Below the pieces are notes generated by a model, which saw only the letters and a program-made list of their open reading frames with translations, was not told where the DNA came from and did not search any database. From positions 2,294,001 through 2,358,000 of the forward strand of contig NZ_CP012502.1 in NCBI RefSeq assembly GCF_001721685.1: a stretch of DNA of 64,000 nt. Reading direction: 5' to 3'. Below are positions 18,754-46,382 of this stretch, in pieces. Both the position numbers and the translations under genes were made by a program. The stretch is from Salisediminibacterium beveridgei. Lineage in GTDB: Bacteria > Bacillota > Bacilli > Bacillales > Salisediminibacteriaceae. The stretch's first letter is position 1; each line of letters begins with the position of its first letter.

Positions 18754-19848
18754 ATGAAGTATGATTTCTCTTATTCATTCCCTGCAGTTCGAGGACTACA
18801 GGCAAAGCGCCAATACTATATTGCAATGTGTCCACTTAAATTAATCCCAAAATTGTTCTTATTTGATGAAGAAGAAATCCCTGTTGAATATCGCTCCCAA
18901 AGAGTTATTAACAGACGAAGAATACCTGAAATTTCAAATTATATACTTGAGAATCCTGATGATTATGTTTTCAGCTCCATCACAGCAAGCATTGATGGTG
19001 ACATGGAATTTATCAGCCAGGGAGAAGATGCTAATCAAAATGTAGGAATGCTAATGATAAGTATGGAGGCCAGATTTTTAATCAATGATGGACAGCACCG
19101 AAGAGCTGCGATTGAAGAGGCATTGAATATCAATCCGGAACTTGGCAATGAGACTATTTCAGTCGTTTTTTTTGAAGATCAAGGTTTACTGAGGAGCCAG
19201 CAGCTATTTTCAGATCTTAATAAGCACGCTGTAAATACAACTAAATCAATTGGCATATTATATGATTCAAGAGATCACTTGGCTACCATTACAAAAAATA
19301 TTATTCAAGAGAATGATGTTCTACGAAAATTAACTGATCTTGAGAGTTCTTCGCTCTCAAAATTCAGCCCCAAAGTATTTACTCTTAGTACGATCCATTC
19401 AACAAATAAGCGGATATTAGGAGTCAAAAAAAATGATACAATAGCATTTGATTCAGAAGAATTCCTGGTTTCATTCTGGGATGAACTGGTTCACTCTATT
19501 TCTGAGTGGAATGCAGTTCACAACAAAGAATTATCAGCCAGTGAATTAAGAAAGAATTACATTTGTTCCTATGGTATCGTCCTCGAAGCGATTGGAATGA
19601 TTGGTCATGAAATGTTCAAAGCCCGTCCTGATGATTGGAATAATAGATTAAAAGGATTAAATAAAATTGACTGGTCGAGAAACAATAGAACGCTTTGGTT
19701 AAATCGAGTTTATAATCAGAGTGGGAGAATCAATAAAAATCTCCATTCGATTAAACTAACCAAAAATCAGATAAAAAAAGAATTAGATCTCGAATTAAAT
19801 TATGATGAATTAGAAATGGAAGAGCAATTCCTTAAGGAGGAATATTAA
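18754..19848 (+). CDS. dndB: DNA phosphorothioation regulator DndB
   Basis: A 364-residue DGQHR-domain protein; the DGQHR motif is at residues 112-116 and is followed by a helical region. Members of this family act as transcriptional regulators of dnd genes and influence how often sites are modified. It opens the operon, with GGAGG upstream of the ATG, and is followed after one base by dndC, which has its own AAGGAGG inside the dndB end. The length is normal. Control of the divergent helicase/ATPase pair by DndB is possible, because they share the upstream region. Confidence 0.9.
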   Translation: MKYDFSYSFPAVRGLQAKRQYYIAMCPLKLIPKLFLFDEEEIPVEYRSQRVINRRRIPEISNYILENPDDYVFSSITASIDGDMEFISQGEDANQNVGMLMISMEARFLINDGQHRRAAIEEALNINPELGNETISVVFFEDQGLLRSQQLFSDLNKHAVNTTKSIGILYDSRDHLATITKNIIQENDVLRKLTDLESSSLSKFSPKVFTLSTIHSTNKRILGVKKNDTIAFDSEEFLVSFWDELVHSISEWNAVHNKELSASELRKNYICSYGIVLEAIGMIGHEMFKARPDDWNNRLKGLNKIDWSRNNRTLWLNRVYNQSGRINKNLHSIKLTKNQIKKELDLELNYDELEMEEQFLKEEY

Positions 19849-19849
19849 T

Positions 19850-21253
19850 ATGGATTTGATGTATTTCAAAGACAATAAAAAAGAAGATTTATATAAACAG
19901 ATTCAACAAATATACACTGCAGATGAACGGCCTTGGGTTATTGGATTTAGTGGAGGAAAAGACTCTACTGTCGTCGTCCAGGCTATATTCTACGCTCTTA
20001 AAGATCTTCCAAAGAATAAATTAACCAAACCCGTTTATGTCATTTCATCAGATACAATGGTGGAGAATCCTAAAATTATCAGCCACATCGAAACACAGCT
20101 GAATAATATGAAAAAAGCCGCCAACGATCTGAACATCCCCATTCATGTACAAAAAGTTATGCCTAATGTAAAAGATTCTTTTTGGGTTAATCTCATTGGT
20201 AAAGGATACCCTGCACCCCGTCAAAAATTCAGGTGGTGTACTGATCGACTTAAAATAGATCCTGCCAATGATTTCATTTTAAAAACCGTTTCGGAATTTG
20301 GTGAGGCAATCGTTGTTCTTGGTGTTCGGAAATCCGAAAGCTCAACTCGGGCTCAAGTCATGAACACGCACAAAATTGAAGGTAAGACACTCAGACGGCA
20401 TTCAAATTTACCTAATTCATATGTGTTTGCTCCGATTGAAGATTTTTCACTTGGTGACGTTTGGACATACCTACTGCAAGTACCGAACCCTTGGGGAAGC
20501 AACAATCATGACTTACTGTCCCTCTATGAAGACAGCAATTCAGGCGAGTGCCCACTTGTAATTGATCAATCCACTCCCAGCTGTGGTAACAGCCGCTTTG
20601 GCTGCTGGGTCTGTACTGTTGTATCAGAAGATAAATCACTCAGCGGATTTATTGACTCCGGAAAAAATCAAGAACAATCAAACGACTGGCTCATACCATT
20701 ACAACAATTCAGAAATTGGTTATCAGAGAACAGGGATATTCCTGAGAATCGTGAGAAAAAGCGCATGAATGGCATGGTTTATTTAGTCGGGGATGAAGAC
20801 AATCGAAGAAAAGGACTCGGACCTTACACATTGGAACACCGCCAGGAAATTCTTCAGTATTTATTACAAATTGAAAAAGAAATCCAGAACCCTGAAGACC
20901 CTTCATATGAACTCATTACAATCGATGAACTAAAGGAAATTCGCAGAATATGGTTTGAGAAGGGCGATTGGAACGATTCCTTACCGGATATATACAGAGA
21001 AGTATACGACACTGAGCCAGATTGGGAAATTGAACAAAGCGAATTCATGGACCCAAATGATATTAAAGAACTTAAATCACTTTGTGATTCAGAGGGTGTT
21101 GAATTTGAATTAATTCAAAAACTTGTAAACATTGAAAACAAACATTATGGCTATAAGAGAAGACACGGTGTACTAAAAGACATCAACCGTACGTTAAATG
21201 AAGAATGGATCCACTTTGATAAAATTCAAGGAGAAGACTATGCAGATAAATAA
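19850..21253 (+). CDS. dndC: DNA phosphorothioation sulfurtransferase DndC
   Basis: A 467-residue PAPS-reductase-like ATPase. The PP-loop SGGKDS is at residues 34-39. Four cysteines suited to a 4Fe-4S cluster are present: Cys130 in RWCTD and Cys245, Cys252, Cys255 in CGNSRFGCWVC. The family activates the DNA backbone with ATP and helps transfer the sulfur supplied by DndA. It sits between dndB and dndD, overlapping dndD by 14 bases, the canonical order. All expected catalytic features are intact. Confidence 0.93.
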   Translation: MDLMYFKDNKKEDLYKQIQQIYTADERPWVIGFSGGKDSTVVVQAIFYALKDLPKNKLTKPVYVISSDTMVENPKIISHIETQLNNMKKAANDLNIPIHVQKVMPNVKDSFWVNLIGKGYPAPRQKFRWCTDRLKIDPANDFILKTVSEFGEAIVVLGVRKSESSTRAQVMNTHKIEGKTLRRHSNLPNSYVFAPIEDFSLGDVWTYLLQVPNPWGSNNHDLLSLYEDSNSGECPLVIDQSTPSCGNSRFGCWVCTVVSEDKSLSGFIDSGKNQEQSNDWLIPLQQFRNWLSENRDIPENREKKRMNGMVYLVGDEDNRRKGLGPYTLEHRQEILQYLLQIEKEIQNPEDPSYELITIDELKEIRRIWFEKGDWNDSLPDIYREVYDTEPDWEIEQSEFMDPNDIKELKSLCDSEGVEFELIQKLVNIENKHYGYKRRHGVLKDINRTLNEEWIHFDKIQGEDYADK

Positions 21254-23288
21254 TATAACTCTTAAAAATTTTGGAATATACTATGGTGAAAATCAATTTG
21301 ATTTTGACAAATCTGAATCAGATCAGAATATTACCCTTATCGGGGGGAAAAACGGGTCAGGCAAAACTACTTTGCTGAGTGCGATTAAAATCGCACTCTA
21401 TGGCCCTCTTTTTTTGGGATATAAATCAGCCAATCAAGAATACCTCAACTATGTGGAAAGTAAAATGAATTCCTATGCTATAGAAGAAGGAAATACGAAC
21501 TCCAAAATCATTCTCAACTTTCAATTCAGAGACAAGGGTGAACTGATTAAATTTCGTATTGAACGATCTTGGAATTTAAATCATAACGGATTAAAGGAGA
21601 ATTATTTAGTCTATAGAAATAGTCAATTGCTTGGTTCTAGAGAAATCGAAGATTTTCTTCAATACTTGAAAAGGTATCTGCCTCCTACTTTATTTGATTT
21701 CTTCTTCTTCGATGGAGAAAGAGTTCACCAATATGTTCTGGACAGTAAATTCGAAGAAAATATAAAAGAAGCATTTATGACTCTTTTTAATCTTGATTTA
21801 TTCGAAAATCTGAACAGTGATCTCCATAAGTATTTACGTCAAGAAAATATTTTTAAATCATTAACAGATGAACAACGAAAATATACTTCTCTGGACATGG
21901 AAATCGAAGCGAAAAAACAATCAATTCGATCCCTTGAGAATCGAGTATCAGAACTTAAAAATGAAAGAAAGAATATTAATGTAATGATGGAAGAACTGGA
22001 ACAGGAATTCTCTGCTCACGGTGGAATCGTTGCTGAAGAAAGACAAACATTAACCCAAAAAATTGCAGAATATGAACTGAAGAAAAAAGAGCTTTCCGAA
22101 AGTATTAAATCAGATGCAGCTCATATTATCCCTCTCAAATTAGTTGAAAAATTATTACAAAAAACCCAAAATCAAGTCTCGCAAGAAGAAGAAGTGGAAA
22201 AATTTAATAAACTTCAGTCTGATATTTCCGAGGAAAATATCCACCGGATGATTAAATCTTTAACACCTACATTCTCAATTGAGAACGAAAACTCTGAAAA
22301 CCCTGAAAAAGAACTAGCTAATGCACTTTCTAAAGAATTTAATCAGTCATTAAAGCCAAAAGGAATGAACATAGATTCTTTCAAGCCTATTCACAATATG
22401 AACAAAGAACAAAAAGAAGCCCTTCATGAATGGTTGAAAAAAGTAAATCAATTTGATGGTAATTCAGTTAAAGAAAGATTCAATGACATTTCCAAATATA
22501 TTAATGAAATCTATGAAACTAGAAAAAATATCGAACATAGCATTGAAGACCAGTCATTAAAAGACATTATGCATAAGATTAACGAAAACACCAAGAAGGT
22601 CGAACAAATTAATTACGAGATCACTGGCAATGAAGAGAAGATCCGTAATGGGAAACAACATCTGAATGAATTAACTTATGAAATCGAAAAAATTTCTAAG
22701 AAAGTGCATCAGGCTAAGAAGGATGAAAATATATTTGAAGTAACTCAAAAAATAAATACGGTTCTATCAAAATACAAACAAAATCAAGTGGAAAAATATC
22801 TTGATTCAGTTGAAAAGTACTTCTTACAAATGTTCAATTCGCTTATGAGAAAAGGCCAATTTCTAGAATCTTTTAAAATTGATCCAAATTCATTTAACAT
22901 TAAAATGAAAAATCATACAGGTAACTCGATATTCAAACACTCATTTTCAGCTGGTGAAACGCAATTATTCTTTCTGACACTTTTGTGGTCACTGTTGAAA
23001 GCTTCAGGTCAAAAAATACCACTTGTCCTGGATACTTTATTTGCACGTTTAGATAAAACACATAAAGAAAATCTCATAAATATTTTCCTACCCGTAGCCA
23101 GCGAGCAAGTAATTATTCTGTCTACAGATACTGAAATAGATGAATATTATCACGAAATGCTTAAACCTTATGTAAAAGATGAATACTCACTAATTTATAA
23201 TCGTACAACAAACGATGTAAGTATAGTTAATGATTATATTATTGAGAGAGGCGGGGATTATCATGTTATTTCGACTAAAAACAGCTGA
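21240..23288 (+). CDS. dndD: DNA phosphorothioation ATPase DndD
   Basis: A 682-residue SMC/Rad50-like ATPase. Walker A GGKNGSGKT is at residues 35-43, a long coiled-coil region fills about 190-540, and the C-terminal lobe has the ABC signature FSAGETQ, Walker B PLVLDTLFARLD and the STDTEID end motif. DndD is thought to use ATP hydrolysis to open or nick DNA for sulfur insertion. The ATG at 21240 is preferred over an upstream frame extension because AAGGAG precedes it. It overlaps dndC by 14 bases and dndE by 26 bases. Confidence 0.92.
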   Translation: MQINNITLKNFGIYYGENQFDFDKSESDQNITLIGGKNGSGKTTLLSAIKIALYGPLFLGYKSANQEYLNYVESKMNSYAIEEGNTNSKIILNFQFRDKGELIKFRIERSWNLNHNGLKENYLVYRNSQLLGSREIEDFLQYLKRYLPPTLFDFFFFDGERVHQYVLDSKFEENIKEAFMTLFNLDLFENLNSDLHKYLRQENIFKSLTDEQRKYTSLDMEIEAKKQSIRSLENRVSELKNERKNINVMMEELEQEFSAHGGIVAEERQTLTQKIAEYELKKKELSESIKSDAAHIIPLKLVEKLLQKTQNQVSQEEEVEKFNKLQSDISEENIHRMIKSLTPTFSIENENSENPEKELANALSKEFNQSLKPKGMNIDSFKPIHNMNKEQKEALHEWLKKVNQFDGNSVKERFNDISKYINEIYETRKNIEHSIEDQSLKDIMHKINENTKKVEQINYEITGNEEKIRNGKQHLNELTYEIEKISKKVHQAKKDENIFEVTQKINTVLSKYKQNQVEKYLDSVEKYFLQMFNSLMRKGQFLESFKIDPNSFNIKMKNHTGNSIFKHSFSAGETQLFFLTLLWSLLKASGQKIPLVLDTLFARLDKTHKENLINIFLPVASEQVIILSTDTEIDEYYHEMLKPYVKDEYSLIYNRTTNDVSIVNDYIIERGGDYHVISTKNS

Positions 23289-23652
23289 AAGAACCCAAAT
23301 GATACTCGAAAATTTATATAGCAGTACTCATTTGACTCCAAATATACTCTCGCGAATTGCTATCTCCCTCTCCTTACTGGACGAAAATACAGATATAGAA
23401 AATATGAACTATGATAGCCGCGGAATTGAATTTAACAGAAATACCTTAACTGGGGATTTGGATTTCATTTATAAATCATTGATTTCTCAGTCGTTACAAA
23501 GAGAAATTACTGACGAAGAATATTTCCCCACATTGATCAAAAAACATCTTGATCGTGGAGCGCGCTTACTGGAAAATGAATATAAATATTCAGGGAACTA
23601 CGAAAAATTCCTTAGCTCAATTGCGAGCTTGGATATTGAGGTGTTGAGATGA
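23263..23652 (+). CDS. dndE: DNA phosphorothioation protein DndE
   Basis: A 129-residue small helical protein. It has the RTQMILENLYSSTHLTPNIL start and a GDLDFIYKSLISQ helix that fits DndE, a compact tetrameric protein that binds nicked DNA. The start at 23263 is preceded by GAGAGGCGGGG; a start 33 bases earlier is less likely. It overlaps dndD upstream and dndA downstream (4 bases, ATGA), so the genes are tightly coupled. Confidence 0.9.
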   Translation: MLFRLKTAERTQMILENLYSSTHLTPNILSRIAISLSLLDENTDIENMNYDSRGIEFNRNTLTGDLDFIYKSLISQSLQREITDEEYFPTLIKKHLDRGARLLENEYKYSGNYEKFLSSIASLDIEVLR

Positions 23653-24800
23653 TTTATTTCGATAACAGTTCCACTACCCCCCTTCATCCAGAGGTCAAAG
23701 AAGCGATGTGGCCTTATATAAATGAGGAATTTGGCAATCCATCTTCTAAATATTATACGCTCGCTGAGAACGCTAAAAACGCTGTTGAAGAATCCAGACA
23801 ACAAATCAGTTCGTTAATTGGTTCTCAGTCATCGGAGATTATTTTCACCAGTTGTTCTACAGAAAGCAATAATTTCATATTAAAAGGAATAGCTAATGAT
23901 CACCAAAAAACAGGCCGACATATCATTACAAGTAAAGTTGAGCATAAATCCGTATTGGATACTTGTGAATACCTCAATAATAATGGCTTCGAAGTAGAAT
24001 ATCTGGATGTTAATGAATTCGGCCAGGTTAGCTCTGATACACTAGTCAGCTCAATTAGAGAGGATACCATTCTCGTTTCACTCATTTGGGGAAATAATGA
24101 AATTGGTTCTCTGAATGATATTGAGGAGCTGGCTAAATGCACAAAAAAAAATAACCCCAACACTTTTTTTCATACGGATGCAACTCAAGTTCTTGGCAAG
24201 GTATCGGTTGATTTGAATAAATCAGGTAATATCGATTTCTTATCCGGCTCCGGTCATAAACTCTTCGGTCCAAAAGGAATTGGAATATGCTACATCAAAA
24301 AGCAACCTGAAGGTCATCGTACAAAGATCACCCCCCTGCTGCATGGGGGTGACCAAGAGTTTGGCTATCGTGCGGGTACATTAAGTGTCCATAACATAGT
24401 AGGTATGGGCAAAGCATCCGAAATTGCTAAAAAAGAAATGAAGCAGAATAATGAATTTCTTTCAAAATTAGATATTCAAATCAAAGACAGCCTAACCAAG
24501 CAATTTGATCACATAACATTTAATACACCTGATGAAAACAAAATACCTGGCGTGCTAAACTTCACGATTCCCGGTGCAAATAATGAATTAATTATTCGTG
24601 CCCTGAAAAATGATTTTGCCATTTCCACCGGTTCAGCTTGCTCTTTAAACGAACCGTCTTACGTTCTAAGTGCAATTGGTTTAAATGCTGTTCAGGTTAG
24701 TAATTCATTTAGAATATCACTGTCTAAGTTTAATAAGACAGACGAAATTAATCAATTCATCAGTAAAATGGATAAAACAATTAATATGTATTCAATTTGA
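23649..24800 (+). CDS. dndA: Cysteine desulfurase DndA
   Basis: A 383-residue class V aminotransferase-fold enzyme that depends on pyridoxal phosphate. The PLP lysine is Lys204 in SGSGHKLFG and the persulfide-carrying cysteine is Cys331 in TGSACSL. It removes sulfur from L-cysteine and passes it to DndC. Many dnd clusters lack dndA and borrow IscS; here it is present as the fifth gene. A strong terminator follows at 24816-24849, so the core operon ends here. Confidence 0.9.
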   Translation: MIYFDNSSTTPLHPEVKEAMWPYINEEFGNPSSKYYTLAENAKNAVEESRQQISSLIGSQSSEIIFTSCSTESNNFILKGIANDHQKTGRHIITSKVEHKSVLDTCEYLNNNGFEVEYLDVNEFGQVSSDTLVSSIREDTILVSLIWGNNEIGSLNDIEELAKCTKKNNPNTFFHTDATQVLGKVSVDLNKSGNIDFLSGSGHKLFGPKGIGICYIKKQPEGHRTKITPLLHGGDQEFGYRAGTLSVHNIVGMGKASEIAKKEMKQNNEFLSKLDIQIKDSLTKQFDHITFNTPDENKIPGVLNFTIPGANNELIIRALKNDFAISTGSACSLNEPSYVLSAIGLNAVQVSNSFRISLSKFNKTDEINQFISKMDKTINMYSI

Positions 24801-25134: not shown

Positions 25135-25144
25135 GGTGCTCAAT

Positions 25145-27154: not shown

Positions 27155-27169
27155 AGGCAGGTGAAAAAT

Positions 27170-27575: not shown

Positions 27576-30500
27576 TTAATTCCGATTCTCAAATGGCGTG
27601 ATTTCCACAAGATTAGCAATATTATTACTCAATTCTCCGTTGTTGCTTATTGGACCATGAACAATGCATTTGCCTTTTGAAAGAGTCGATAATTTTCTTT
27701 CCCAATGTTTCTTATCTTCATTTTGATTTACTAAATTTCCTGCAATTGGACCGATTTCACTTTCAGGTGGGGCGAAATATACTTTTTCACCTGCATTTTG
27801 TAGACGCGTTAATTCATCAGTACCAAACTGTGATTTAAGAAATTGAGTTGCATACCAAGCAGACCATCCAAACTTACGTCCTTCAGTTAAAATCCTGGCA
27901 GATGGAGAATCTTTTCGATGATCGAGATTTTGCGCTTCATCCATTATAACAGGAATGGGTATATTTTTATCTCCGTTTCTAACAGAATAACTCCACAAAT
28001 CCCATAGCATAAACTCAGTGATCATCAACTGTACTTCTCTGCTATACCCTGTTAGCTGGATAATATTCACATCGCCATCACTTAATATTATTTTACTCCA
28101 GTCCATCTCGCCATCTTGACTATCAAAAGGATTACGATCTATAAAACTGCGTATTTGTGATAATGTTGTTTTTGCGTAATTCGTTTCTAATGCCTCAAGT
28201 TCATTTCCTAGCTGTGTTAACGACATATTATTCTTTAATTTCTTAACCCCATTTTGAGTCGCCTGATAAATAGCATTCAATTGTTGAACGCCAAGTGAAC
28301 TGTAAACAGATGAGAAAACACTTTTAATTCTTTCTGCGACATCTGTTTCATTTTCTTCCAGGACAATGCCTCCGATGTTCTTTTCATGCTGTTTGAACGG
28401 GTTTATTGGCAGCTTATCGTTAAATACTATATGTTGTTTGATTTTCCCTTCCAGTCTATTTACAAATTCTGTTTCCAACTGATTAGGTAAAAACCCTTCA
28501 GTATAATCAACCACAATACTTGGGATTCCCTGCTTCGATAATTCATATAATATGCATTGCATAAAATATGTCTTACCTTGACCTGATTTTCCTGAAATTA
28601 ATAAATGACGATTTGCTAAATTTTTATTTCCGTATTCCCAATATATATTTTTATTGCTTCCTAAGGCTTTCCCAATTAAAATTCTTACGTCTTCGATTGG
28701 AACACTATTTTGTGATTGACAACTGGGCGTCTTATCAACAGGCGGATCATTTGTTTCGACTGGGGTATACTGATCTTCATTTCCATTATTTAATACATCA
28801 ATCGGTTCTGCTTTTTTCTCTGATTGATTATTATAGTCAGTTTTTTCAACAGTCACATCCGGAACTTTTTCGGTGTTTTGACTGTTACGATAGATTAGAC
28901 TCAATAATCTGTCGGAAGAAAGATCTAACTTCCCACTCACTAGTCTTTGTCTATGTTCTTCAATTGACTCTATAATACCTTTAGTGCCATCAAACTCATT
29001 AAATCTTAAAATTGTAATTTGATCTTCGAATTCCGCTCGAGCAATTGGATTACCGTCCTTTTCAAACGAAACGATGCACCCTTTGCCAATAAGCGAGTTT
29101 AGAGTGGTTGAAATTGAAAACTCATCATTCACAATTTTCGACTTAATATTTTCACTTAATCCATAATACTTTTCATTCCAAAAGTTACTTTGTACCATCT
29201 TATTATAATTTGATAAAAATAATTGGATGAAAAATTGTCTGTAAAATTTAATTTCAAATGAGTTGTCTAACTCATCGTTATAAATCAGGTGATTTTGAAA
29301 TAAGGCCGAAGTTGAATTAATTTGTTTTTTAGCCTTATCAATTACTCCAGACTGATTCCATCCTATCTTTACTTCGATGGGATAAAAATGAAATTCAATA
29401 CCTTTCTCATTCTGTTCCATACCTATAAAAAGTATATCGTCACTATGACTTCCAGTGACTCCTAAGTTCTTTGCAGTAAAAACACCACCTTGTTTACTTA
29501 GTCCAAATGCCCCTGCAACCCTGATTACTTCTTCAAGTGAAACGGGCACCCACAAAATATCAGGGTGATCAAAATAACTCAAACAATATTTAATCCCTGA
29601 CAAAATACTGAGTTTTTCTCTATCAAATTGTCCTTTACTTCCGATGACTCTTAATAACCATTCACCATTGAATGCATTAAAGGCTTTAATAGCTGATTCA
29701 ATATGCTCTTCAGAAACTTTTAAGTCCTTGGATAATAAATATTCATTTATAACATTGTAGTACTGCTCTGACTTATTCGTCACTGTGATCGCATCATACC
29801 TCGAAGATGATGAATACTGATCACTGTAGTGAATTACTACCAGACTGTCATTAAAAGATTGAAAATAATCTAAATCAACATCCGGATCAACAAACGTCAC
29901 CCAGTGAGAAGCTCTAAAAATTGAGTTAAGTTCTTGTTCAGTTTCAACATTTTTCCGAGATATAATCGACACATCTTTATAATATTTGTCGTTACCTGCG
30001 TTTTTATTATTCGCACAAAGTTCATTTTGATATTTCACTGTTTTTACAAGTTGTGAATTTGAAAAACTTTCAAATCCCTTAAGCCCAAAACCCGATTGAT
30101 ACCCAGCATTAGTTCTCATTTTTGACGTGGTTGTTAATAAACCATTTAAACTGATACCTGATTTCATATCGAATACTTGCTCAATTGCATATCTTTCATC
30201 GGTACCCATTTTATAAAACGTTAAATGAGCATATGAATATTCATTTTTTAAACTATGTTTATAATAAAATAGTTTCTCTCTGATCACTCTGATCATATCA
30301 ATTTCATCATAGTTTTTAGACCTTAAATCTAACTTAAACTCATTAGCTATTTCTTTTGAACTTTTCATTCTTGAAAAATAATCAAAAGATGAATCTGCAT
30401 AATTATTAGAATAAATTGAGACCTGGATTTCTCTCACATTTTCCAATCCATATGTTTTGATATTATGGATCATCCAATTTAAAATCCCAGAAAGAATTTC

Positions 30501-32768
30501 ATGATCATTATTGATATTTACAACATTTATGCGATAAGGTGCTGATGATTCTTTCATGAATAAATAATCAAAATGATTTTGGAATTGCATCATTTTATCC
30601 TCGACCACTTTGGATAAATAATTCATGCTATCGGTAAATGATATATTCTCACCGGGCTTATACTTGATCCATTGCTTAAGAGGGTTTTCTTCATCGACTT
30701 TCATATTTTCCCCCTTCCTATTATAGATAAAAGGAACAAGGGAGTTCATTGTCAATCTTTCTAAAATACTGGATGGATACTCATCACTAGATAATTGTTT
30801 TGAAACTTCTAACTGATAAGCGATTGATATTGGATGAAATGCCGTAATAAGAAATTCTTCATTATTTTTTATACAGCAAAAGTTCATCATATCTACACGT
30901 TCTTTCGGTGTTCCTTCCATACTCACTCTTTCAATTTGATTTAAATATTCAGCAATAAAACTTTCAGCTATTTGAAAATATTCTGAAGAGACATATGCTA
31001 AACTCGGAAGTGTAGAATATTTATTAAAATAATTTGTAATATGACTAAACGCATCCGCTAGATCTTCATGAATAACAATATCTTTTCTTTGTAATTGCCC
31101 GGCAAGCACTTCTCCAGAATAAAGTCCTTGCTGCAACCACTCATTTTCCCATTTTAAAAACGTTGAATACTCAGGACGAGTATAGTATTCATCAGTGCCA
31201 ATAAACAATTTACCATCTAAATATTTAAAATGATCTTGTCTTTCTCTTTTCATTTTCCAAATGTTTAATGCAGTTATTGGAATGGCCTCAGTTAATTCTG
31301 TTGTTAACAAAAAAGTGAATGTGACATTTTGAATAACCGCGGAAAATCTTAATTGATCCATCTCATTATAAGCTGTCAATGAAGGTACTAATGTAGTATT
31401 TATTTCGTTATCAAGTTGAATCGTTTGGTCGAATTTATCTATTGAATAATTTTGATTTCGACCATTGCCAATTTTCAATTCCGAAATATCATCAGTAATT
31501 TCAATCCATTTTTTCTTCGCATCAATATTAAATCTAGTTTTTATATCTAAAAAAATCGACTCTTCAAATGGCAAAATCGCAATTTTAAATTCTCCGCCCA
31601 ATGAAATTTTATCTTCATGTTTGTAGGTTAAATGAATATAAACAATTTCATCAGGATTCCCTTTTAATTTTAAATTAATTGTTTTTTGTTTTACATACTG
31701 TTCGACAACGTATTCGCCACCAGAGGATATTTTCAAAAATTTTGAATTTAAACTTTTTTCTTTACCTCCTGTTATATTAAATTTAATATTAAGCTCAATA
31801 TATTCATGGTTTTCTTCATTAAATACCAGCAGACTTCTTTTTCTTCGTCCTGCTACTGTTTCCTTATAATATTTCTCCCAGCATACCCCTGGTTGAAGAT
31901 CAATTTTATCTATATATATTTTTGTTTGCTTATCTTCAATCTTTTTCTCTTCAATAGATTTAGCAACCTCTGAATATGATACAGTTTCCCAATCATCTTT
32001 TTTAAGAAGCCTCACGCCTTTCTCACTGAATATTTTAGGCAATTCTTCATCTGGATTCCCAAAATCATGCATTCTTCTAACCTGTTCAAACAATTCACGA
32101 TTATCGGTTAATCTATTCTTTATTTCTTTTGGCCTTTTTCCATAAAGGTCATCATCAACGAATAATGAAATTTTCTCATAATCCTTATTTTCTATAATTC
32201 CTTGATTTAATATTCCAAACACTTCTTTGAAATCTAGCAATGAGTATCCGTCAATTGCATCTGTCTGCAACATGTTGTCCAAGTGATCTATCAAAATAAC
32301 TTTTTCAAACGATTCAAGTGAACTTTCTTCAATTTTGTTTTTTAAGTCAATCTTTAGCATATTTGAGTTAAAAGGCATTCCCCTTTTTTGTAAATCACTG
32401 CTGCCGCCTTTTATACTATCCAAATCCTTACAAATAATACTAAGTAAAGACGTTTTATCCCAATCGGCTGATTGATCACTGACTTTGTTTCTTAATGTGA
32501 CAAGAAAGTCCGGAGTTGTACCCTTTGATGTTCCATCTGTAATTATAGTCGTATCGTTACCGCTAAATTGTATTGCTCTATATTCAGTGTTTGAATCAAG
32601 CTGATAGTTACTTTCGAAAGTCTTCTCATGATTTTCAATTGCCAAGAGTAAAGATTCTACTTCTTCTTCATAGTCCAGTTTAAGAAAATAACGTGCTCCC
32701 GGATGAGCAATTTTTTGTAATTCCTCAATTAACAACCCTGCTATAAAATTATAAAATTGATTTAACAT
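27576..32768 (-). CDS. dptH: Phosphorothioation-dependent restriction ATPase DptH
   Basis: A 1730-residue DptH protein. The N-terminal 1300 residues are large and family-specific. The C-terminal part is a HerA/FtsK-like ATPase with Walker A in SGKSGQGKT (about 1390) and Walker B in VIMDEAQ (about 1608), so it can drive DNA translocation or unwinding. DptFGH degrade or damage DNA that lacks phosphorothioate. I place the start at 32768; the open frame begins seven codons earlier at a GTG. It overlaps dptG by 20 bases, which couples translation. Complete by length. Confidence 0.88.
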   Translation of the reverse strand: MLNQFYNFIAGLLIEELQKIAHPGARYFLKLDYEEEVESLLLAIENHEKTFESNYQLDSNTEYRAIQFSGNDTTIITDGTSKGTTPDFLVTLRNKVSDQSADWDKTSLLSIICKDLDSIKGGSSDLQKRGMPFNSNMLKIDLKNKIEESSLESFEKVILIDHLDNMLQTDAIDGYSLLDFKEVFGILNQGIIENKDYEKISLFVDDDLYGKRPKEIKNRLTDNRELFEQVRRMHDFGNPDEELPKIFSEKGVRLLKKDDWETVSYSEVAKSIEEKKIEDKQTKIYIDKIDLQPGVCWEKYYKETVAGRRKRSLLVFNEENHEYIELNIKFNITGGKEKSLNSKFLKISSGGEYVVEQYVKQKTINLKLKGNPDEIVYIHLTYKHEDKISLGGEFKIAILPFEESIFLDIKTRFNIDAKKKWIEITDDISELKIGNGRNQNYSIDKFDQTIQLDNEINTTLVPSLTAYNEMDQLRFSAVIQNVTFTFLLTTELTEAIPITALNIWKMKRERQDHFKYLDGKLFIGTDEYYTRPEYSTFLKWENEWLQQGLYSGEVLAGQLQRKDIVIHEDLADAFSHITNYFNKYSTLPSLAYVSSEYFQIAESFIAEYLNQIERVSMEGTPKERVDMMNFCCIKNNEEFLITAFHPISIAYQLEVSKQLSSDEYPSSILERLTMNSLVPFIYNRKGENMKVDEENPLKQWIKYKPGENISFTDSMNYLSKVVEDKMMQFQNHFDYLFMKESSAPYRINVVNINNDHEILSGILNWMIHNIKTYGLENVREIQVSIYSNNYADSSFDYFSRMKSSKEIANEFKLDLRSKNYDEIDMIRVIREKLFYYKHSLKNEYSYAHLTFYKMGTDERYAIEQVFDMKSGISLNGLLTTTSKMRTNAGYQSGFGLKGFESFSNSQLVKTVKYQNELCANNKNAGNDKYYKDVSIISRKNVETEQELNSIFRASHWVTFVDPDVDLDYFQSFNDSLVVIHYSDQYSSSSRYDAITVTNKSEQYYNVINEYLLSKDLKVSEEHIESAIKAFNAFNGEWLLRVIGSKGQFDREKLSILSGIKYCLSYFDHPDILWVPVSLEEVIRVAGAFGLSKQGGVFTAKNLGVTGSHSDDILFIGMEQNEKGIEFHFYPIEVKIGWNQSGVIDKAKKQINSTSALFQNHLIYNDELDNSFEIKFYRQFFIQLFLSNYNKMVQSNFWNEKYYGLSENIKSKIVNDEFSISTTLNSLIGKGCIVSFEKDGNPIARAEFEDQITILRFNEFDGTKGIIESIEEHRQRLVSGKLDLSSDRLLSLIYRNSQNTEKVPDVTVEKTDYNNQSEKKAEPIDVLNNGNEDQYTPVETNDPPVDKTPSCQSQNSVPIEDVRILIGKALGSNKNIYWEYGNKNLANRHLLISGKSGQGKTYFMQCILYELSKQGIPSIVVDYTEGFLPNQLETEFVNRLEGKIKQHIVFNDKLPINPFKQHEKNIGGIVLEENETDVAERIKSVFSSVYSSLGVQQLNAIYQATQNGVKKLKNNMSLTQLGNELEALETNYAKTTLSQIRSFIDRNPFDSQDGEMDWSKIILSDGDVNIIQLTGYSREVQLMITEFMLWDLWSYSVRNGDKNIPIPVIMDEAQNLDHRKDSPSARILTEGRKFGWSAWYATQFLKSQFGTDELTRLQNAGEKVYFAPPESEIGPIAGNLVNQNEDKKHWERKLSTLSKGKCIVHGPISNNGELSNNIANLVEITPFENRN

Positions 32769-34164
32769 ATTGTGCGTCACCACTATCACTCTTCTTTTCT
32801 ATAATATTTATACTGTCCAGAAGATCAATTATTTTTTCTTTAGAATACTGATCAAATTGAACCCCTCTGTTCTCAAGTTCTTTAAAATATTCTTTTAATG
32901 TGATTTTAGTTTTACCTTGAGTAGCAAGTGCGGTAACCAAAATTAAAAATTCTTGAGTGATATTTAATGAATATCCCAGGCTCCCTCTGAATTTCAGAAA
33001 TTGACCATGCATAATATTTTCTAAACTTTTTCCGTAATTTTCGCATACACTTGTACTCATTGACGTTCTCATATAGTGAAACAATTTCTCTATTGCTTGC
33101 TGTATTGTTTCAACAGGTCCTTCATATGTTACATCACCTCGTATTTCACAGTATTTCTGCAACCATTCATTTAATGATTGAAGAAATTCTCGACGTTCTT
33201 CTTCCTCATCTAATAATTCCATTAAATCTTTATAAGTTTGAAATCGCTTTTCTTTTACATCAATTTCGTTTTTTAAAAGATGACTCAGTTGAGATTGGCA
33301 ATGAATATGCACAAAAGTCGACTTATAGATATCTCTCAAATTTTTATAGCTTAAAGAGTCTGATATACTTGGTCTTCGTTTACTTAGGGTTTCCCAATCT
33401 AAACCATAATATAGAGGGAAAATGGTATTATGATCACCCTTGTCAAATCTATGAAAGTTCAAAGCTAATTGAGACACATAAAAAAATAAATAGTACTGAA
33501 ATAAAAGTTCAACATGGTCCAAAAAGAATTCTCTGTGTCTGCTTATAAATATAAAATCTTGTTGGAACATCGTAATAACGTTACTATTAAGAGCTTGATA
33601 TTTGTTACCTTTAGAACTGTTTTTTAAATTCTCCAAGTGATCTAAAATTAATTTAATTAACAAATCATCTTCTTCACTTTTATCAAACACTTTGGAAAGT
33701 TTGTCATTATTATAACCAAGTATATCCTTTGCAAACTGAGCTACTTTTTTCTCATAATCTTTTTGATTTTTATTATCTGATAAAGGATAATATAAAAAAA
33801 CATGAGGGTGAATCGGCCGAATGATATTGTTCTCTTTACGGTCAGATAAAATAATCTCAATTAATCTTCTCAAGTCATCACGACTGCTTTCATCATCCAC
33901 AGTAACCTGTTTAGAGATCTTTTCTCCAATTGTTACTTCTTCTGTAAAATATTCTCCTGTGTCTTCTTTACTCAACAAAGGGGCCGTTTCATTTTCTAAT
34001 GCACTGCTTTTTATCAGGCGGCTAAACTCTCCCAGGATATTCTTAAAATCACCATTAACTTTAATTCCTTTATCATTAGCTCTGAATGGGAGAATATCAT
34101 GAATATTTCCGGTGCTGTGCTGACCTTTTGCTAATTTTTTTAATTCTTCTATATTTAACTTCAT
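32749..34164 (-). CDS. dptG: Phosphorothioation-dependent restriction protein DptG
   Basis: A 471-residue soluble, largely helical protein with no recognisable catalytic motif, of the size and position of DptG. It lies between dptF and dptH in the canonical order. The ATG at 34164 follows AGGGAG at the end of dptF; a TTG at 34170 is also possible. It overlaps dptH by 20 bases. DptG is needed for restriction but its biochemical role is not clear. Confidence 0.8.
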   Translation of the reverse strand: MKLNIEELKKLAKGQHSTGNIHDILPFRANDKGIKVNGDFKNILGEFSRLIKSSALENETAPLLSKEDTGEYFTEEVTIGEKISKQVTVDDESSRDDLRRLIEIILSDRKENNIIRPIHPHVFLYYPLSDNKNQKDYEKKVAQFAKDILGYNNDKLSKVFDKSEEDDLLIKLILDHLENLKNSSKGNKYQALNSNVITMFQQDFIFISRHREFFLDHVELLFQYYLFFYVSQLALNFHRFDKGDHNTIFPLYYGLDWETLSKRRPSISDSLSYKNLRDIYKSTFVHIHCQSQLSHLLKNEIDVKEKRFQTYKDLMELLDEEEERREFLQSLNEWLQKYCEIRGDVTYEGPVETIQQAIEKLFHYMRTSMSTSVCENYGKSLENIMHGQFLKFRGSLGYSLNITQEFLILVTALATQGKTKITLKEYFKELENRGVQFDQYSKEKIIDLLDSINIIEKKSDSGDAQYVKSIL

Positions 34165-34172
34165 AACCAATT

Positions 34173-37016
34173 CTACTCCCTGTCAAAAGTATATCCTGAA
34201 AGGTCAGAATACTCTAATCTGTATATTTTCTTTTCTTTAGGCATATGAATCAATAATTCTTCTTCATTATTTGAGCAACTGATAATTCGATCAATAAATT
34301 CTATGAAGTTTATTGCATCTTCCATATCTTTGTAATTTTGTTGATATCCTTTTTCTACTGCTAACAATAATTGATATAAATAATAATCAATATCCAAATA
34401 AATCGTTTTCTTTGAGTGTTTTTCTGTAAATCCAACTCTTATGATCAAATCAAATGATCTTAAAAGGTCTCCTTGCACCGCTTTTAGATGATCTGCGCTT
34501 GCATTGATGTTAAGTTTTTGAGCTACTTTGAATTCAAAATAATCTTTTATATAAATATAATTATTTTTAGGGGTTCCTCTCCATTTCATCATTGCGCTGT
34601 ACACGATCATACTGAATTTTCTTATTTCTTCAGTATTACGTTTATTAAAAGAGTACAAATTTCTTAAAAATGAAATGTAGGAATCAGGAATTAAATTTTT
34701 ATAAAATTCACTGTTTGTTAAAAAAGATACTCTTATAAGCATTTTCGATAGTTGAGTATTCGATAAAAGTGAACTATTCGCACCCTGTGAGTCAGTTTCA
34801 AAAATTTTCTGATACAGCGGAAAGTAATCATTGTTACTCAAATGCTCATCAACTACTTTTTTTCGATCTTCTTTGGTATTGATATCAAGAATTATGTTAT
34901 CAATATCTTTATTACGATAATGAATAGGGTCAATTTCTGCCATAGCATCGAGCATTATTGATCTGTTTTTTCTGTTAAACATTAAGTTTGGAAAACTATT
35001 TTCGAAAAAATCCCCGTCGCTCCAACCGAATTCTAGTTCTTCATCATATCCTTCTGGAATAATAATATTTGCAATGAAATTGAATACAGCTCTTGTTGAT
35101 ACAACAATTTTTTTCATCAATATTGCTCTAATCATTGACTGAACTACAACATACTGCACTTGAGAATTCATTAAATATTGATAGTTATAATGTAATATCC
35201 CTTTGAACCCTTTATGTTCATTTACATCAAGTTTGAATGCTTCATAAAATGGATTTGAATCGGATTCTACAAAAATTCTATTCAAAATACCCTGAAAAAA
35301 CTCAGATTGTGCACCATTTTCACTCAACTCAAAAGGAGGATACTCACTGAAAGTCACAATACTGTATGGTTTCTCAGAAAAATACGGTGAATGATCGCGT
35401 TCAAACACTTTGCTTTTTTCAATAAATTCTTTTAATTTAAAATATGAATATTCTCCATGATCGGCTTCCAAGAACTTATTTAAAATACCTAAGTTCATCG
35501 CAATAATCATTTTTTCATTATTTTTATCTAGATGTTGATCTGAAAATGAAATCAACTCTTCAGTTAATGTTTCAACCGCAGTTTTCTTTCTATCATAGCT
35601 TTCAGTGGCATCATTATATATCTTAAAATTACTTATTTCCGGAAGATTTTCTTTGAAGTAAGACAATAAATGTGATTTCCCATCACCAACGCTGCCACTC
35701 AATATAATTAAAGACGATTTATTGGACTCACTTTCTTCTTTAATAATCGCTTCGATATCAGATTGGATTTTTCTGTCGACGTGCATATACTGCTTGAATT
35801 TGCTAAACTCTTCTGGACTTTCAACTGCCTCCATTGATGATTCTTGAAGTCTTCTGAGTTCTCTTAATAAATAACTTTTCCCAGTCGGTAAATCCTCTTT
35901 TATTAGAGTGTTTTTTTCGGTTTCCAAATTATCTTCATTTTGTTTAATCTCAGATTTATTTGAATCCGGCATCATAAAATTCACCTGTTTTTCTTTCAGT
36001 AATTCATTCAATACTGATTCTAATTGGTCTTTTGGAATGAACTCCTGGCGACTCTTGAGGGGTTCGCGATATTTAGGTATTTGAATACTTCCATCACCAT
36101 AAACTTCTGCAAACCAAGAAGCTACAACGAACGATTCCCTATATAATTTGATAGCATCTTCAATACTTGAAAAATCTTTATCGTGAATAGCTTTGTTCCC
36201 GGTTTTTCTGATAATATACATTGAATTGAAGACTTTAGGATCAGACTTCGGCAGATACCCTTCCATGTTGATAAATTTAATTTTTTCAACTAACGGCTGA
36301 CTTAATACATCTAACTTTTGTTCATTTTTCAAAACATTTTCTAAAATTGATTCTAATAAACTTCTTGCATACATACATGAAGCTTTCGGATCATCAAAAA
36401 GTCTGTCCTCCATCTTGGATGCTAAATTATATAATTCTTCTTCTATGTTTTTTAAAAAATAAAACAATTCGTCTGAATGTCCCATAATTTCAACTCCATT
36501 CTCTTCATATGACTGCTCCATATTGGATTCTTGTGTCTCAGGAAGATACAATCTTTTTTTGATGTCATACTGTATTGAATCAGCCCAAAACTTATTAAGT
36601 ATAAAGCTACTGACCAATGCTCTGTTATCTTCACTTTCTATAAGTAGATCAAAAACACCTTCTACAAAAAATCCATATGTTTCAGTATCTCTCATTATTT
36701 TTTTGGATACTTTATCATCAGAAATTACACCAAGACCGTATTTACTTTTAATTTCCCAAATATTAGAACTGACTAAATAATTAAATGGTTGTTCCGGCAT
36801 ACTACTTCTTAGCCTTCTTCCGCCAAATAATTTTATTAAATCATCCAAATCATCTTCCAATTCTTTAAAAATAAATTTGTTTTCTGAAATTTGCCCGCGA
36901 TGTATTATTGAAATCAGTAATAACAATAGCAACGGCTTTTTCAGAGAAACTCCTTGATTCTTTTGTTTATGTAAATTTATTTTATCGATCTCCTCTAGTA
37001 ATTCACTAAGTTTCAT
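34173..37016 (-). CDS. dptF: DptF fused to N-terminal sulfur-binding and DUF4145-like domains
   Basis: A 947-residue, three-part protein. Residues 1-160 are a sulfur-binding domain about 60 percent identical by eye to the N-terminus of the adjacent HNH enzyme. Residues about 180-310 look like a DUF4145 domain (ARSLLESILENVL, then RKTGNKAIHDKD). Residues about 380-947 are the DptF ATPase with Walker A GSVGDGKSH at 441-449. That last part alone has roughly the length I would expect of a normal DptF. The ATG at 37016 has GGAGG upstream; the frame is open 20 codons further. It heads dptF-dptG-dptH. The fusion suggests that the restriction complex reads phosphorothioate DNA. Confidence 0.85.
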   Translation of the reverse strand: MKLSELLEEIDKINLHKQKNQGVSLKKPLLLLLLISIIHRGQISENKFIFKELEDDLDDLIKLFGGRRLRSSMPEQPFNYLVSSNIWEIKSKYGLGVISDDKVSKKIMRDTETYGFFVEGVFDLLIESEDNRALVSSFILNKFWADSIQYDIKKRLYLPETQESNMEQSYEENGVEIMGHSDELFYFLKNIEEELYNLASKMEDRLFDDPKASCMYARSLLESILENVLKNEQKLDVLSQPLVEKIKFINMEGYLPKSDPKVFNSMYIIRKTGNKAIHDKDFSSIEDAIKLYRESFVVASWFAEVYGDGSIQIPKYREPLKSRQEFIPKDQLESVLNELLKEKQVNFMMPDSNKSEIKQNEDNLETEKNTLIKEDLPTGKSYLLRELRRLQESSMEAVESPEEFSKFKQYMHVDRKIQSDIEAIIKEESESNKSSLIILSGSVGDGKSHLLSYFKENLPEISNFKIYNDATESYDRKKTAVETLTEELISFSDQHLDKNNEKMIIAMNLGILNKFLEADHGEYSYFKLKEFIEKSKVFERDHSPYFSEKPYSIVTFSEYPPFELSENGAQSEFFQGILNRIFVESDSNPFYEAFKLDVNEHKGFKGILHYNYQYLMNSQVQYVVVQSMIRAILMKKIVVSTRAVFNFIANIIIPEGYDEELEFGWSDGDFFENSFPNLMFNRKNRSIMLDAMAEIDPIHYRNKDIDNIILDINTKEDRKKVVDEHLSNNDYFPLYQKIFETDSQGANSSLLSNTQLSKMLIRVSFLTNSEFYKNLIPDSYISFLRNLYSFNKRNTEEIRKFSMIVYSAMMKWRGTPKNNYIYIKDYFEFKVAQKLNINASADHLKAVQGDLLRSFDLIIRVGFTEKHSKKTIYLDIDYYLYQLLLAVEKGYQQNYKDMEDAINFIEFIDRIISCSNNEEELLIHMPKEKKIYRLEYSDLSGYTFDRE

Positions 37017-37169
37017 TTTCAAGCCTCCGTTGGAATTACTCAGTTTTCCTCTCTTCATTTCTTTGTGATAACACACTCCATTAAATCCAGTTATTGATTA
37101 TTTTTTAAAAGAGCCTCATGAGGAAGCCCTAATAGAAAAGAATAGTAAATTAATTTAAAAATTAAAAAA

Positions 37170-38063
37170 TCACTTAACAAAAACATTATTATGATGCCAT
37201 TCAATATATTCGTTCGCCGGACCACCCGCTTGACTTGACCTCAATTTCTTCCCTGCTAAATTTGTGATTAAATTAGAACTGATATTATCCGAGGATCTAA
37301 ATTGAGACGAAACAGTGATTTCGTAAGTTCTTGGTTGAAACGTATAGATACCTCTGTCAAGTGCCCAGTGGTGAAGCTTACAAAGTGCAAGACCGTTATC
37401 TTTCGTATCCGGACCCTCATATGCGTGCCACATAATGTGAGCAGCATCGATACCAAACGGAGTATCATTAAAAACTGATGAAAATCCACAAACTGCGCAG
37501 CTGTTGCGATAGTTTGATAATACTTCAATCGTAAATTGAGGATCTCTCTTCCTTTGATCATAATAGTCCAAACCAGGTACGATTCCTTCAGGAAGACCCA
37601 GCATATTTTTGATATCCTGCTGAATAGTATCAGGCCAAAATTTTTTCAGTATAAATGAACTGACTATTGCTCTGTTTTTCTCACTTGCATGTAGCAGTTC
37701 ATATACATCCTCATTAAAATATCCATACGTTTCAGCATTTCTCAGAACTTTTTTAGATAATTTATCATCTCGGATTACCCCTGTCCCATAAGGGCTCCTC
37801 ACTTCCCAAATCATCGAACTTGCTAAATAATTAAATGGCTGTTCTGGTCTACTTGCATAATTTCTGCCTCCAAAAGATTTTATTAACATATCCAGTTCAT
37901 GCTCGAGTAAATGAAAAGAGAAGCGATTCTGCTTAACTTTGTTTTGATCTATGAGAGAGATCAGTAATAACAAAAACAATGGTTTTTTAAGAGATGCACC
38001 TATTTTCTTTTGTTTATGTAACTTCAATTTCTCTACTTCGACTATCAAGTCCTCTATTTTCAA
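37170..38063 (-). CDS. Sulfur-binding-domain HNH endonuclease (phosphorothioate-dependent type)
   Basis: A 297-residue enzyme like the ScoMcrA/SprMcrA group. Residues 1-160 form the sulfur-binding domain, with PEQPFNYL and IWEV segments. The C-terminal HNH has zinc Cys189, Cys192 and Cys228 and catalytic His209, Asn223 and His232, all apparently intact. Such enzymes recognise phosphorothioate DNA and cleave near it, which would harm a cell that modifies its own DNA. Here it stands beside a complete dnd operon. Translation appears to start at a TTG with AGGGGG upstream, five bases after the DUF2075 gene. A gap of 153 bases separates it from dptF. Confidence 0.85.
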   Translation of the reverse strand: MKIEDLIVEVEKLKLHKQKKIGASLKKPLFLLLLISLIDQNKVKQNRFSFHLLEHELDMLIKSFGGRNYASRPEQPFNYLASSMIWEVRSPYGTGVIRDDKLSKKVLRNAETYGYFNEDVYELLHASEKNRAIVSSFILKKFWPDTIQQDIKNMLGLPEGIVPGLDYYDQRKRDPQFTIEVLSNYRNSCAVCGFSSVFNDTPFGIDAAHIMWHAYEGPDTKDNGLALCKLHHWALDRGIYTFQPRTYEITVSSQFRSSDNISSNLITNLAGKKLRSSQAGGPANEYIEWHHNNVFVK

Positions 38064-38067
38064 AAGA

Positions 38068-39926
38068 TTAAATCCCCCTGTCGCTATTTGTTCGTAAATA
38101 CTCCCTCAACCCTTCATCCACGCAATACACATAACACCCTCTCATCCCCCTGGTCAGAAGTGTCTTATATGTATTCCTCACCAGCCGATCGAGATCGTCG
38201 GTTTTGTAATTGCCCTTTGGTTTCGCCGGTCTTGCGCCTTTGTCTTTGAAATTCTCTCTTTTGACTTCGATTTGCTCTGTCTCAGGATTATAGGTCAGAT
38301 CATTTCCGATAATGACACCCACATAACCCATCTCGAGCCCTTGAACGGTATGGATGCAGCCAACCTGTTCCCGTCCTTCCGGGTGAATGCCCAGTCAATC
38401 CGGTTGGGGTCATTCCAGGGCATGGCGAAGTCTGCAGCTTCAATCGCGACGTCTTTTGGCAGTTCACCGTTAACGAGTTCCTTGTTCCACTCCCAGGCGT
38501 AACCGGCAACGAGCCGTCCGTCTTTCTCTTCCACGACTTTGTCATAGAGCTCGTTTGGTGAGTCCACCAGTTGAAAATCGAAATCCCCTTCCAAAGGAAT
38601 GTCTTTTCCTTGTTCAAACAGGACATTGTCCAGCCATTCGAGGAAATTCCCCGATCCCCCGCAGCGGAACTGGGAGTCCAGTTCCACCTCATGCAAAATG
38701 GCGCCTTGTTTTTCCGCTTCTTCTTGAATGAGTTTGACGTTGCCGATGTCTTTTTTGGAGATCATTTGTTCATCGTCGATGAAAAAGACGCTGATTTTAC
38801 TGGCACGCATAATCTGTGTCGCCTGATTTTCGCCCTCGATCTTCTTTTGCATATGCCCCTGATTCTTGAGGCGGTGGGCTTCGTCACAGATCAGAACGTC
38901 AAAGTAATTCTCGGGTGTCTGTGTATAAGATCCAGAGCCTTTGAAGAGATTCCGCACTTCCGTAAATCCGCTTCTGCCCACGAGCTTCTTCTTGAGGATT
39001 TCCCGGAAGGACTGGTTCGGTGTGATGTATTCAACGTTGGCCTCGTCTTTCAGGAAGTCATTCATAAGGTTCAGTCCAATAACGGACTTACCGGTGCCGG
39101 GGCCGCCTTTAATCAGGACGACTTCTTTTTGGGCCGTTTCCAGATCCGCCTGCTGATAGACGGCAAGGACCTTCTCATAAGCAACTTTCTGTTCATCGAG
39201 GAGAATGAACTCCTCATTGCCTTCGAGGAGGGATTGCACAGACTCCACCAATTTTTTCGATGGGCGGATCCGGCCATGTTCAATCCGGCTGGCAATGTCT
39301 GCCCCTTTACCATTGGCTACTTTTTCTTTAATCGCGGTTGTGAGCTCCCGGTCGTCGAACTGAAAATAAACCGGGGACTGACGCAGATAGTTTTGGTAAC
39401 GGTCGTCGAGCAGTGGTTCGTTGTGTCTGTCTTGGATGTAATTATGTAAGTAGGAGCACGAGCTTAACTGGATGGAGGTATCATCATAGAGGGCTTCATT
39501 GAAGTTCTCCAGATAACGTTGGTACGAAAGGGACTGGTAGGATGGGTGAACGGTTTCCCGGATGCCTTTACCGAGAAAGGTTTTGACAATGCCGTCGCCA
39601 TCGGCCACTTGCGACTTTTGCCATTGCTTTAATTCCACAATGAGGGCATTCTGAATCCCTGCCTCGTTTTCTCCGGTAATGAGAAAGTCGATCCGCTTCT
39701 CTGAAGAAGGCAGTTTGTATTCAAGGAGGACATGGGTATCCGAAGCCAGGTCTGCATCCCGGATGACCTTGGCCATTTGAGGGAGAGAGTTCGTCCACGA
39801 ACGGATCTCGCTGCCGGAAACAGAATGATTGATCTTCTCTTTGACTTTATCAAGCAGCACATCCTCGATCCGCTGTTCGAGGACATGGGCAATGAATGCA
39901 TTGGACGGTTCATTGTATATGATCAT
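38068..39926 (-). pseudogene. DUF2075 nuclease-helicase, frameshifted
   Basis: The first 500 residues match DUF2075 proteins: an N-terminal nuclease-like part (RIDFLI then IVELKQW) and a helicase core with GGPGTGKS (about 276) and DEAHR (about 348). Near 38385 the frame fails. The protein continues, in another frame, with HPEGREQVGCIHTVQGLEM and an RGMRGCYVY end as in intact family members, so one base is missing around the WA/IHPEG junction. This may be a true lesion or a sequence error. The start at 39926 has GAGGGGAAC upstream. It is directly upstream of the sulfur-binding HNH gene and may be its operon partner. Confidence 0.75.
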
Positions 39927-46370: not shown

Positions 46371-46382
46371 CTGTCAGCCTCC

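Follow-up and report, generated by a model that had tools for sequence, protein, structure and literature searches.

The window analysed here, a 64,000-nucleotide stretch of the Salisediminibacterium beveridgei genome (contig NZ_CP012502.1, positions 2,294,001 to 2,358,000), holds a dnd/dpt locus whose DptF, the ATPase of the DptFGH restriction complex, begins with a sulfur-binding domain (SBD). This N-terminus has the SBD fold, is kin to the SBDs of HNH proteins such as the one encoded next to it, and shares its locus with a phosphorothioate writer set. Phosphorothioate reading by the DptF SBD is plausible, and we tentatively favour a reading in which the SBD docks DptFGH on host phosphorothioate sites and stabilises the repressed state of the complex on self DNA. 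The SBD on the F subunit would hold DptFGH at the sites made by the host DndABCDE, docking would keep the DptF ATPase, and thereby translocation and nicking, repressed there, and on unmarked invader DNA the SBD would find nothing to grip and the complex would run.

The dptF gene lies at 34173-37016 on the minus strand and encodes 947 residues when counted from the ATG at 37016. The frame is open throughout 34173-37076, and the program that listed open reading frames had started it at GTG 37076; this start was rejected, since neither GGAG nor GAGG stands suitably spaced upstream of it, and 37016 is preferred because GGAGG stands 7 nt upstream of its ATG. An earlier interpretation made from the letters alone (the sequence-only reading) had proposed the order SBD, DUF4145-like domain and full-length DptF, and profile matches together with an AlphaFold2 model bear this order out (Table 1). 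NCBIfam PT-DNA_restrict (NF045808) matches residues 5-159 (8e-16, 58 bits, profile positions 2-153), below its whole-protein cut-off of 180 because the SBD portion of that profile alone is present, with no HNH; DUF4145 matches residues 206-290 above the Pfam gathering score, and TIGR03238 (DptF) matches residues 404-946 with 300 bits against a cut-off of 50. The Walker A motif (GSVGDGKS) is intact, and the gene is clustered with dptG and dptH. Residues 1-160 are identical to the HNH neighbour at 98 of 160 positions (61%, one gap position, E 3e-51), in good agreement with the roughly 60% first judged by eye. The model of residues 1-165 (predicted local distance difference test, pLDDT, 91) has the fold of the ScoMcrA and SprMcrA SBDs, and its best structural matches are solved complexes of SBDs with phosphorothioate DNA.

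The modelled DUF4145 region has a HEPN fold. HEPN ribonucleases carry the motif R-x4-6-H; in DptF, R270 and H278, both invariant in the 25 rows of the alignment (A5), have seven residues between them as against that spacing. A DUF4145 profile search against solved structures returned nothing significant, and a single-sequence search of the PDB with DptF gave one unrelated match only, a profile search being required. Residues 184-408 also match the N-terminus of PRK11448, a type I restriction endonuclease profile (62 bits, far under the cut-off of 729), so the DUF4145 domain and the segment that follows it seem to be common to DptF and HsdR-like proteins.

An assembly join, raised earlier as a possible source of the fusion, is excluded because the genome is a single contig of 3,582,268 bases and a second fusion protein, P0002 (949 residues), has an identical layout. 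P0002 is 73% identical to the window's DptF over 947 residues without a gap, and 59% identical over the SBD. A fusion search seeded on residues 1-165 and confined to proteins 0.55-1.75 times the length (932 candidates scored) found two proteins only, the window's own (P0001) and P0002. The same two were the only ones with an SBD among the best 120 of 1079 DptF-like proteins in a large database, the other 118 measuring 742-803 residues and having no SBD motif in their first 250 residues. P0002 and the SBD-HNH protein P0005 each lie on a contig of 20,326 bases, probably the same one. The phylum sample was of little help, with DptF above cut-off in 3 of 398 genomes, the window's own included. Whole-DptF scans of genome contigs and viral contigs found no relative, tblastn of the SBD against plasmids found none either, and DptF matched nine plasmid records, none of them covering residues 1-174.

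The origin of the fusion was examined in a tree of 39 SBDs and in a survey of 397 genomes of the order, 30 of which have DptF above cut-off. In the tree, P0001 and P0002 pair together (100/99) within the SBDs of the KK-type HNH proteins, which carry two lysines in the pocket, and group with the HNH proteins P0003 (the neighbour), P0004 and P0005 (100/100); the nearest HNH protein was not resolved (93/58). In the survey, the DptF open frames of the other 29 genomes are 735-808 residues long (27) or 592-593 residues long (2), against 974 in the window, and 25 of these 29 have a DUF4145 match ahead of the core. With one near-duplicate omitted, 24 of those 25 start 7-36 residues before the invariant phenylalanine of the domain, 19 of them within 7-13. 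On the simplest reading, the SBD of a KK-type HNH lineage would have been duplicated once and joined before a ready-made DUF4145-DptF gene, prior to the split of the two fused lineages. Coevolution of the DNA-contact loop within loci was considered and is not supported: the loop of P0005 matches that of the DptF P0002 at 20 of 25 positions and that of the HNH protein P0003 at 15 of 25, and the window's own DptF and HNH neighbour agree at 17 of 25.

The old DptF start seems still visible at M178, which stands 9 residues before the DUF4145 phenylalanine, aligned with the starts of the SBD-less DptFs. This is suggested because ENGVE-x-M before DUF4145 is kept in both fusions while the whole linker is 45% identical. 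In the window the M178 ATG has GGAG 8 nt before it, against a background in which a motif of this kind (GGAG or GAGG, 5-10 nt away) precedes 11 of 309 ATGs lying in frame inside 26 window genes, and an SBD-less second product from M178 is possible. We consider it a long shot that DptF serves as a cis phosphorothioate sensor on the DndFGH ATPase and that its gene also yields two proteins, one started at 37016 and including the SBD, the other started at M178 and lacking it. If so, a DndFGH complex, reported to have two F subunits, could contain no reader, one or two, and act as a graded switch for self-recognition.

The sulfur pocket was read from an alignment of 48 SBDs (A4), from which P0002 was omitted since the full-length protein distorted it. 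In the profile of this alignment the block ALkKP aligns to ScoMcrA ALH116R117P and the block eqPFshL to Y164-P165-F-W-A168-L, placing K26 at H116, K27 at R117, Q76 at Y164, P77 at P165 and Y80 at A168. The pocket proline and a basic residue are thus retained as P77 and K27, both invariant across the 48 SBDs, and H116 (Y31 in SprMcrA) and Y164 are replaced by K26 and Q76; the pocket of the HNH neighbour is identical to that of DptF (KKP / QPFNY). In ScoMcrA, binding was lost with P165N or on removal of the charge at R117 and was not appreciably changed by R117K, and A168H and A168R were tolerated (PMC6224610). Y164 is conserved in just 7 of the 23 homologues shown in that paper, with Y164M strengthening binding and Y164I lowering it by 89%, and H116 is among the most conserved positions. 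Glutamine at position 164 also occurs in 8 of 27 motif-read high-scoring Bacillales SBD-HNH proteins (30 fetched), and as judged from these alignments the unusual change in the pocket is the lysine at 116. All of the 26 best matches (P0001-P0026, P0002 included) have KK except one, which is without that end. Because of this, and because K27 and P77 are invariant, the KK pocket is, by its conservation, a maintained variant and not a decayed one. The sequence-only reading had named absent sulfur-pocket residues as evidence against it, and this applies in part, three of the five ScoMcrA positions being changed. Of the phosphorothioate-reading N-terminus claimed by the sequence-only reading, the domain identity and architecture hold and the essential K27 and P77 are kept; with K26, Q76 and Y80 altered, the last at a position where change is tolerated, the reading function itself is plausible.

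Work on known complexes supplies the background for repression. DndF, DndG and DndH form a 2:2:1 complex, phosphorothioates repress its ATP hydrolysis and hence its translocation on self DNA, and DndFGH harms cells that lack the mark (PMC11662687). Earlier work, cited in PMC10853773, has DndFGH binding marked sites preferentially, and PMC10853773 treats the sparing of unmarked host sites as an open question. The statement in the sequence-only reading that discrimination by DptFGH is unsettled therefore needs amending for the ATPase, which is reported to be repressed by the mark, and agrees with the literature for unmarked sites. The mark-sensing subunit is not named in the parts of PMC11662687 and PMC10853773 consulted. 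Because the writer set dndB, dndC, dndD, dndE and dndA is encoded in the same locus, host DNA is expected to be marked. For repression by docking, the SBD would have to bind phosphorothioate DNA at all, to bind it in the host's own sequence context, and to inhibit on docking rather than activate.

Several points weigh against this reading. H116 of ScoMcrA is replaced by lysine in the DptF SBD, and H116I lowers binding by 94%, lysine not being among the changes at 116 reported in the portion of PMC6224610 consulted. In SprMcrA, whose cavity is formed by Y31, Q32, Y78, P79 and A82, the strongest loss of binding followed either pocket Tyr-to-Ala change (PMC7470945). Other DndFGH complexes respond to phosphorothioates with no SBD described in the part of PMC11662687 consulted, so none is needed, and the SBD would be at most an added or reinforcing sensor in this lineage. 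Bsp48385I, which may or may not be of the KK type and is the sole one of nine tested enzymes encoded beside dnd and dndFGH, had low activity and hardly discriminated a modified plasmid; with PCR products, it cut the phosphorothioate form better than the normal one (PMC7461809). Finally, the fusion is rare, with two examples found, and between the two the SBD diverges faster (59% identity) than the DptF core (79%).

The strongest rival is one that we regard as unlikely yet well ahead of the others: the SBD with its KK/QP pocket has lost its sulfur preference and is a general or sequence-specific winged-helix DNA binder, or prefers unmodified phosphate, giving DptFGH an extra grip on DNA. The lysine at 116 adds a further positive charge to the pocket, Y164 has become glutamine, Bsp48385I barely discriminates modified plasmid, and KK-type HNH genes occur alongside dnd writer genes in L005, L148, L149 and L150, loci where a sulfur-dependent nuclease should be suicidal. 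However, the conservation of the pocket proline, K27 and the KK pair described above speaks for a maintained variant, glutamine at 164 recurs in other SBD-HNH proteins, and 13 of 31 HK-pocket loci are also dnd-linked, so the pocket change is not required for dnd linkage. The opposite sign of regulation, in which the SBD would bring DptFGH to sulfur-marked DNA and activate it there, for example on phages or plasmids carrying another host's phosphorothioates, appears improbable. In known proteins, SBDs do guide nucleases to DNA that carries phosphorothioates (PMC7461809, PMC6224610), and PMC11662687 describes stimulation of the SspE and DndI NTPases by the mark, but this host has its own writer genes and its own chromosome would be attacked unless the sequence contexts differ. 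DndFGH is moreover reported as repressed by phosphorothioates, and the response of DndI is tied to departure from marked self DNA and the avoidance of autoimmunity (PMC11662687). That the fusion is a neutral accident without function would fit its rarity and the faster divergence of the SBD, yet two lineages whose DptFs are 27% different both retain the open frame, the five pocket residues and W87, and we give this idea very little credence. Activation, a functionless fusion and the shielding role considered below are each less likely than repression by docking or lost sulfur preference.

SBD-HNH proteins were also followed in other genomes. In the order, seven genomes have a low-scoring NF045808 match above cut-off (188-227 bits), and DptF is present in five of them, within 20 kb in four (the window's genome being one); 30 genomes have a high-scoring match (>300 bits), with DptF in three and within 20 kb in two (Fisher p 0.0023, without correction for relatedness). 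Six of the seven low-scoring genomes, all but G157, gave a readable KK motif. Of 150 loci found in the HNH survey the 80 closest genome loci were kept, and dndB or dndC lies in the retained flank of 36 of these 80. In the SBD-HNH set of PMC7461809 fewer than 3.6% have dnd genes next to them, a comparison that is not like for like, our loci having been chosen by likeness to a dnd-linked HNH protein; PMC10853773 reports proteins with winged helix-turn-helix (wHTH), SAD and HNH domains in many Dnd loci. Loss of H116 as a mark of dnd-linked SBD-HNH proteins was rejected as a simple rule (dnd-linked: H 14/33, Y 11/13, N 5/10, K 3/13; 11 of the 80 loci, five of them dnd-linked, are omitted as without a readable motif), and several KK loci are on contigs shorter than 13 kb, where dnd linkage may be missed. 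L002 and L003 are from the same genomes as L149 and L150. Among the loci L020-L081, which come mostly from cyanobacteria and Poribacteria, many have an SBD-HNH protein of about 300-370 residues beside dndC or dndD matches, and Y or N is found at the H116 position in 23 of 69 readable loci of L002-L081; the coexistence of a sulfur-reading nuclease and a writer in the loci L020-L081 is puzzling.

In the window, the HNH neighbour retains the conserved H209, N223, C189 and C192, and the equal pocket, the similar putative base-contact loop (17/25) and the adjoining same-strand genes would suit a further, immunity-like role in which the DptF SBD covers host phosphorothioate sites against the neighbouring SBD-HNH nuclease. 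Such shielding is evidently not required in three genomes of the order (L148, L149, L150), where a KK SBD-HNH gene stands beside dnd and dpt and DptF has no SBD (frames of 770, 768 and 593 residues), and we rank it as the least probable of the explanations.

Table 1. Parts of DptF and associated genes in the window.
Feature	Position	Strand	Basis
SBD-like N-terminus of DptF, residues 1-160, pocket K26, K27, Q76, P77, Y80	36537..37016	-	profile, alignment, model
Linker, residues 161-178, ending in the ATG of M178 (36485-36483)	36483..36536	-	
DUF4145/HEPN-fold domain, residues 166-345 as modelled, first residues overlapping the linker	35982..36521	-	Pfam 206-290 and model
DptF core, TIGR03238 match 404-946, drawn to the stop codon, Walker A GSVGDGKS	34173..35807	-	
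SBD-HNH nuclease gene, 153 nt gap upstream of dptF	37170..38063	-	NF045808 full length, 198 bits against cut-off 180
dptG	32749..34170	-	TIGR03236
dptH with HerA/DUF87 domain	27576..32789	-	TIGR03237 and PF01935
Phosphorothioate writer set dndB, dndC, dndD, dndE, dndA	18754..24800	+	NCBIfam

Within the writer set, DndB, DndC and DndD score above the NCBIfam cut-offs, and DndE (64 bits, cut-off 72) and DndA (427 bits, cut-off 480) fall short of theirs. After the dndBCDEA operon, at 25136-27553 (+), comes a second DndD-like ATPase (TIGR03185 above cut-off) paired with a small gene that matches DndE weakly (PADLOC 3e-5; no NCBIfam match); neither DndD of the window has any cysteine, so the second is not of the CxC zinc-hook type. 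Elsewhere in the order, relatives of this pair adjoin dptH (L152, L158, L161). On the opposite strand to dndB and adjoining it, 10736-18468 (-) holds a gene for a DrmD-like SNF2 helicase (PADLOC 3e-120; below the NCBIfam cut-off), which overlaps by 4 nt a gene of 1520 residues with a sacsin-type ATP-binding domain (PADLOC TmtA). Adjoining the SBD-HNH gene, a Schlafen-group-3 helicase gene at 38295-40025 (-) matches its profile only as far as position 256 of 354 and appears truncated at the border of the dnd/dpt locus. ZorA, ZorB and ZorD matches at 41663-48311 (-), with one unmatched gene between ZorB and ZorD, form a Zorya-like system near the dnd/dpt locus, and the window therefore looks like a defence island.

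The N-terminal fold and pocket frame of the DptF SBD are common to ScoMcrA, SprMcrA and EcoWI, which are SBD-HNH or SBD-SRA-HNH endonucleases, and the DptF SBD groups inside the SBDs of HNH proteins, that of the neighbouring gene among the closest. It differs from those enzymes in lacking a nuclease, in being joined to the ATPase subunit of a restriction complex, and in having lysine in place of H116 and glutamine in place of Y164. N-terminal fusions of DndF/DptF with HEPN, NERD, S/T/Y kinase, GNAT, wHTH and Zn-ribbon domains have been described (PMC10853773), and DUF4145, with its HEPN fold, before DptF is the common form in the order, as in the window. That paper identifies the SBD as a wHTH and reads fused DndF domains as backup effectors, and the three mentions of the SBD in its main text all concern HNH proteins. 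In the full-text literature consulted in part, no statement was found of an SBD on DndF or of the SBD as a DndF sensor, and the supplement of PMC10853773 may list an example. SspE and DndI resemble this DptF in that an anti-phage NTPase and a reader of the sulfur mark, here a candidate one, are parts of one protein (PMC11662687); SspE and DndI are DUF262 (ParB-like) proteins that sense the mark through a hydrophobic patch and whose NTPase is stimulated, whereas the candidate reader here is an SBD on DndF. The DndFGH systems of Salmonella and E. coli have the F-G-H complex and writer set found here and an ATPase reported as repressed by phosphorothioates, but no SBD is described on their DndFs in the sources consulted.

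SBD-DptF is rare and known from sequence, yet it is directly testable. With the SBD on the ATPase subunit, the sensing step can be removed, mutated (K26, K27, P77) or assayed alone, and the fusion thereby opens 'self' recognition by DptFGH to direct experiment, in a copied candidate reader with an altered sulfur pocket. This bears on the open question of how a host genome with sulfur at only part of its sites is spared by DndFGH (PMC10853773). If the favoured reading is true, the SBD, which PMC7470945 describes as almost exclusively followed by HNH motifs, would act in this lineage as a regulator and not as a guide for a nuclease.
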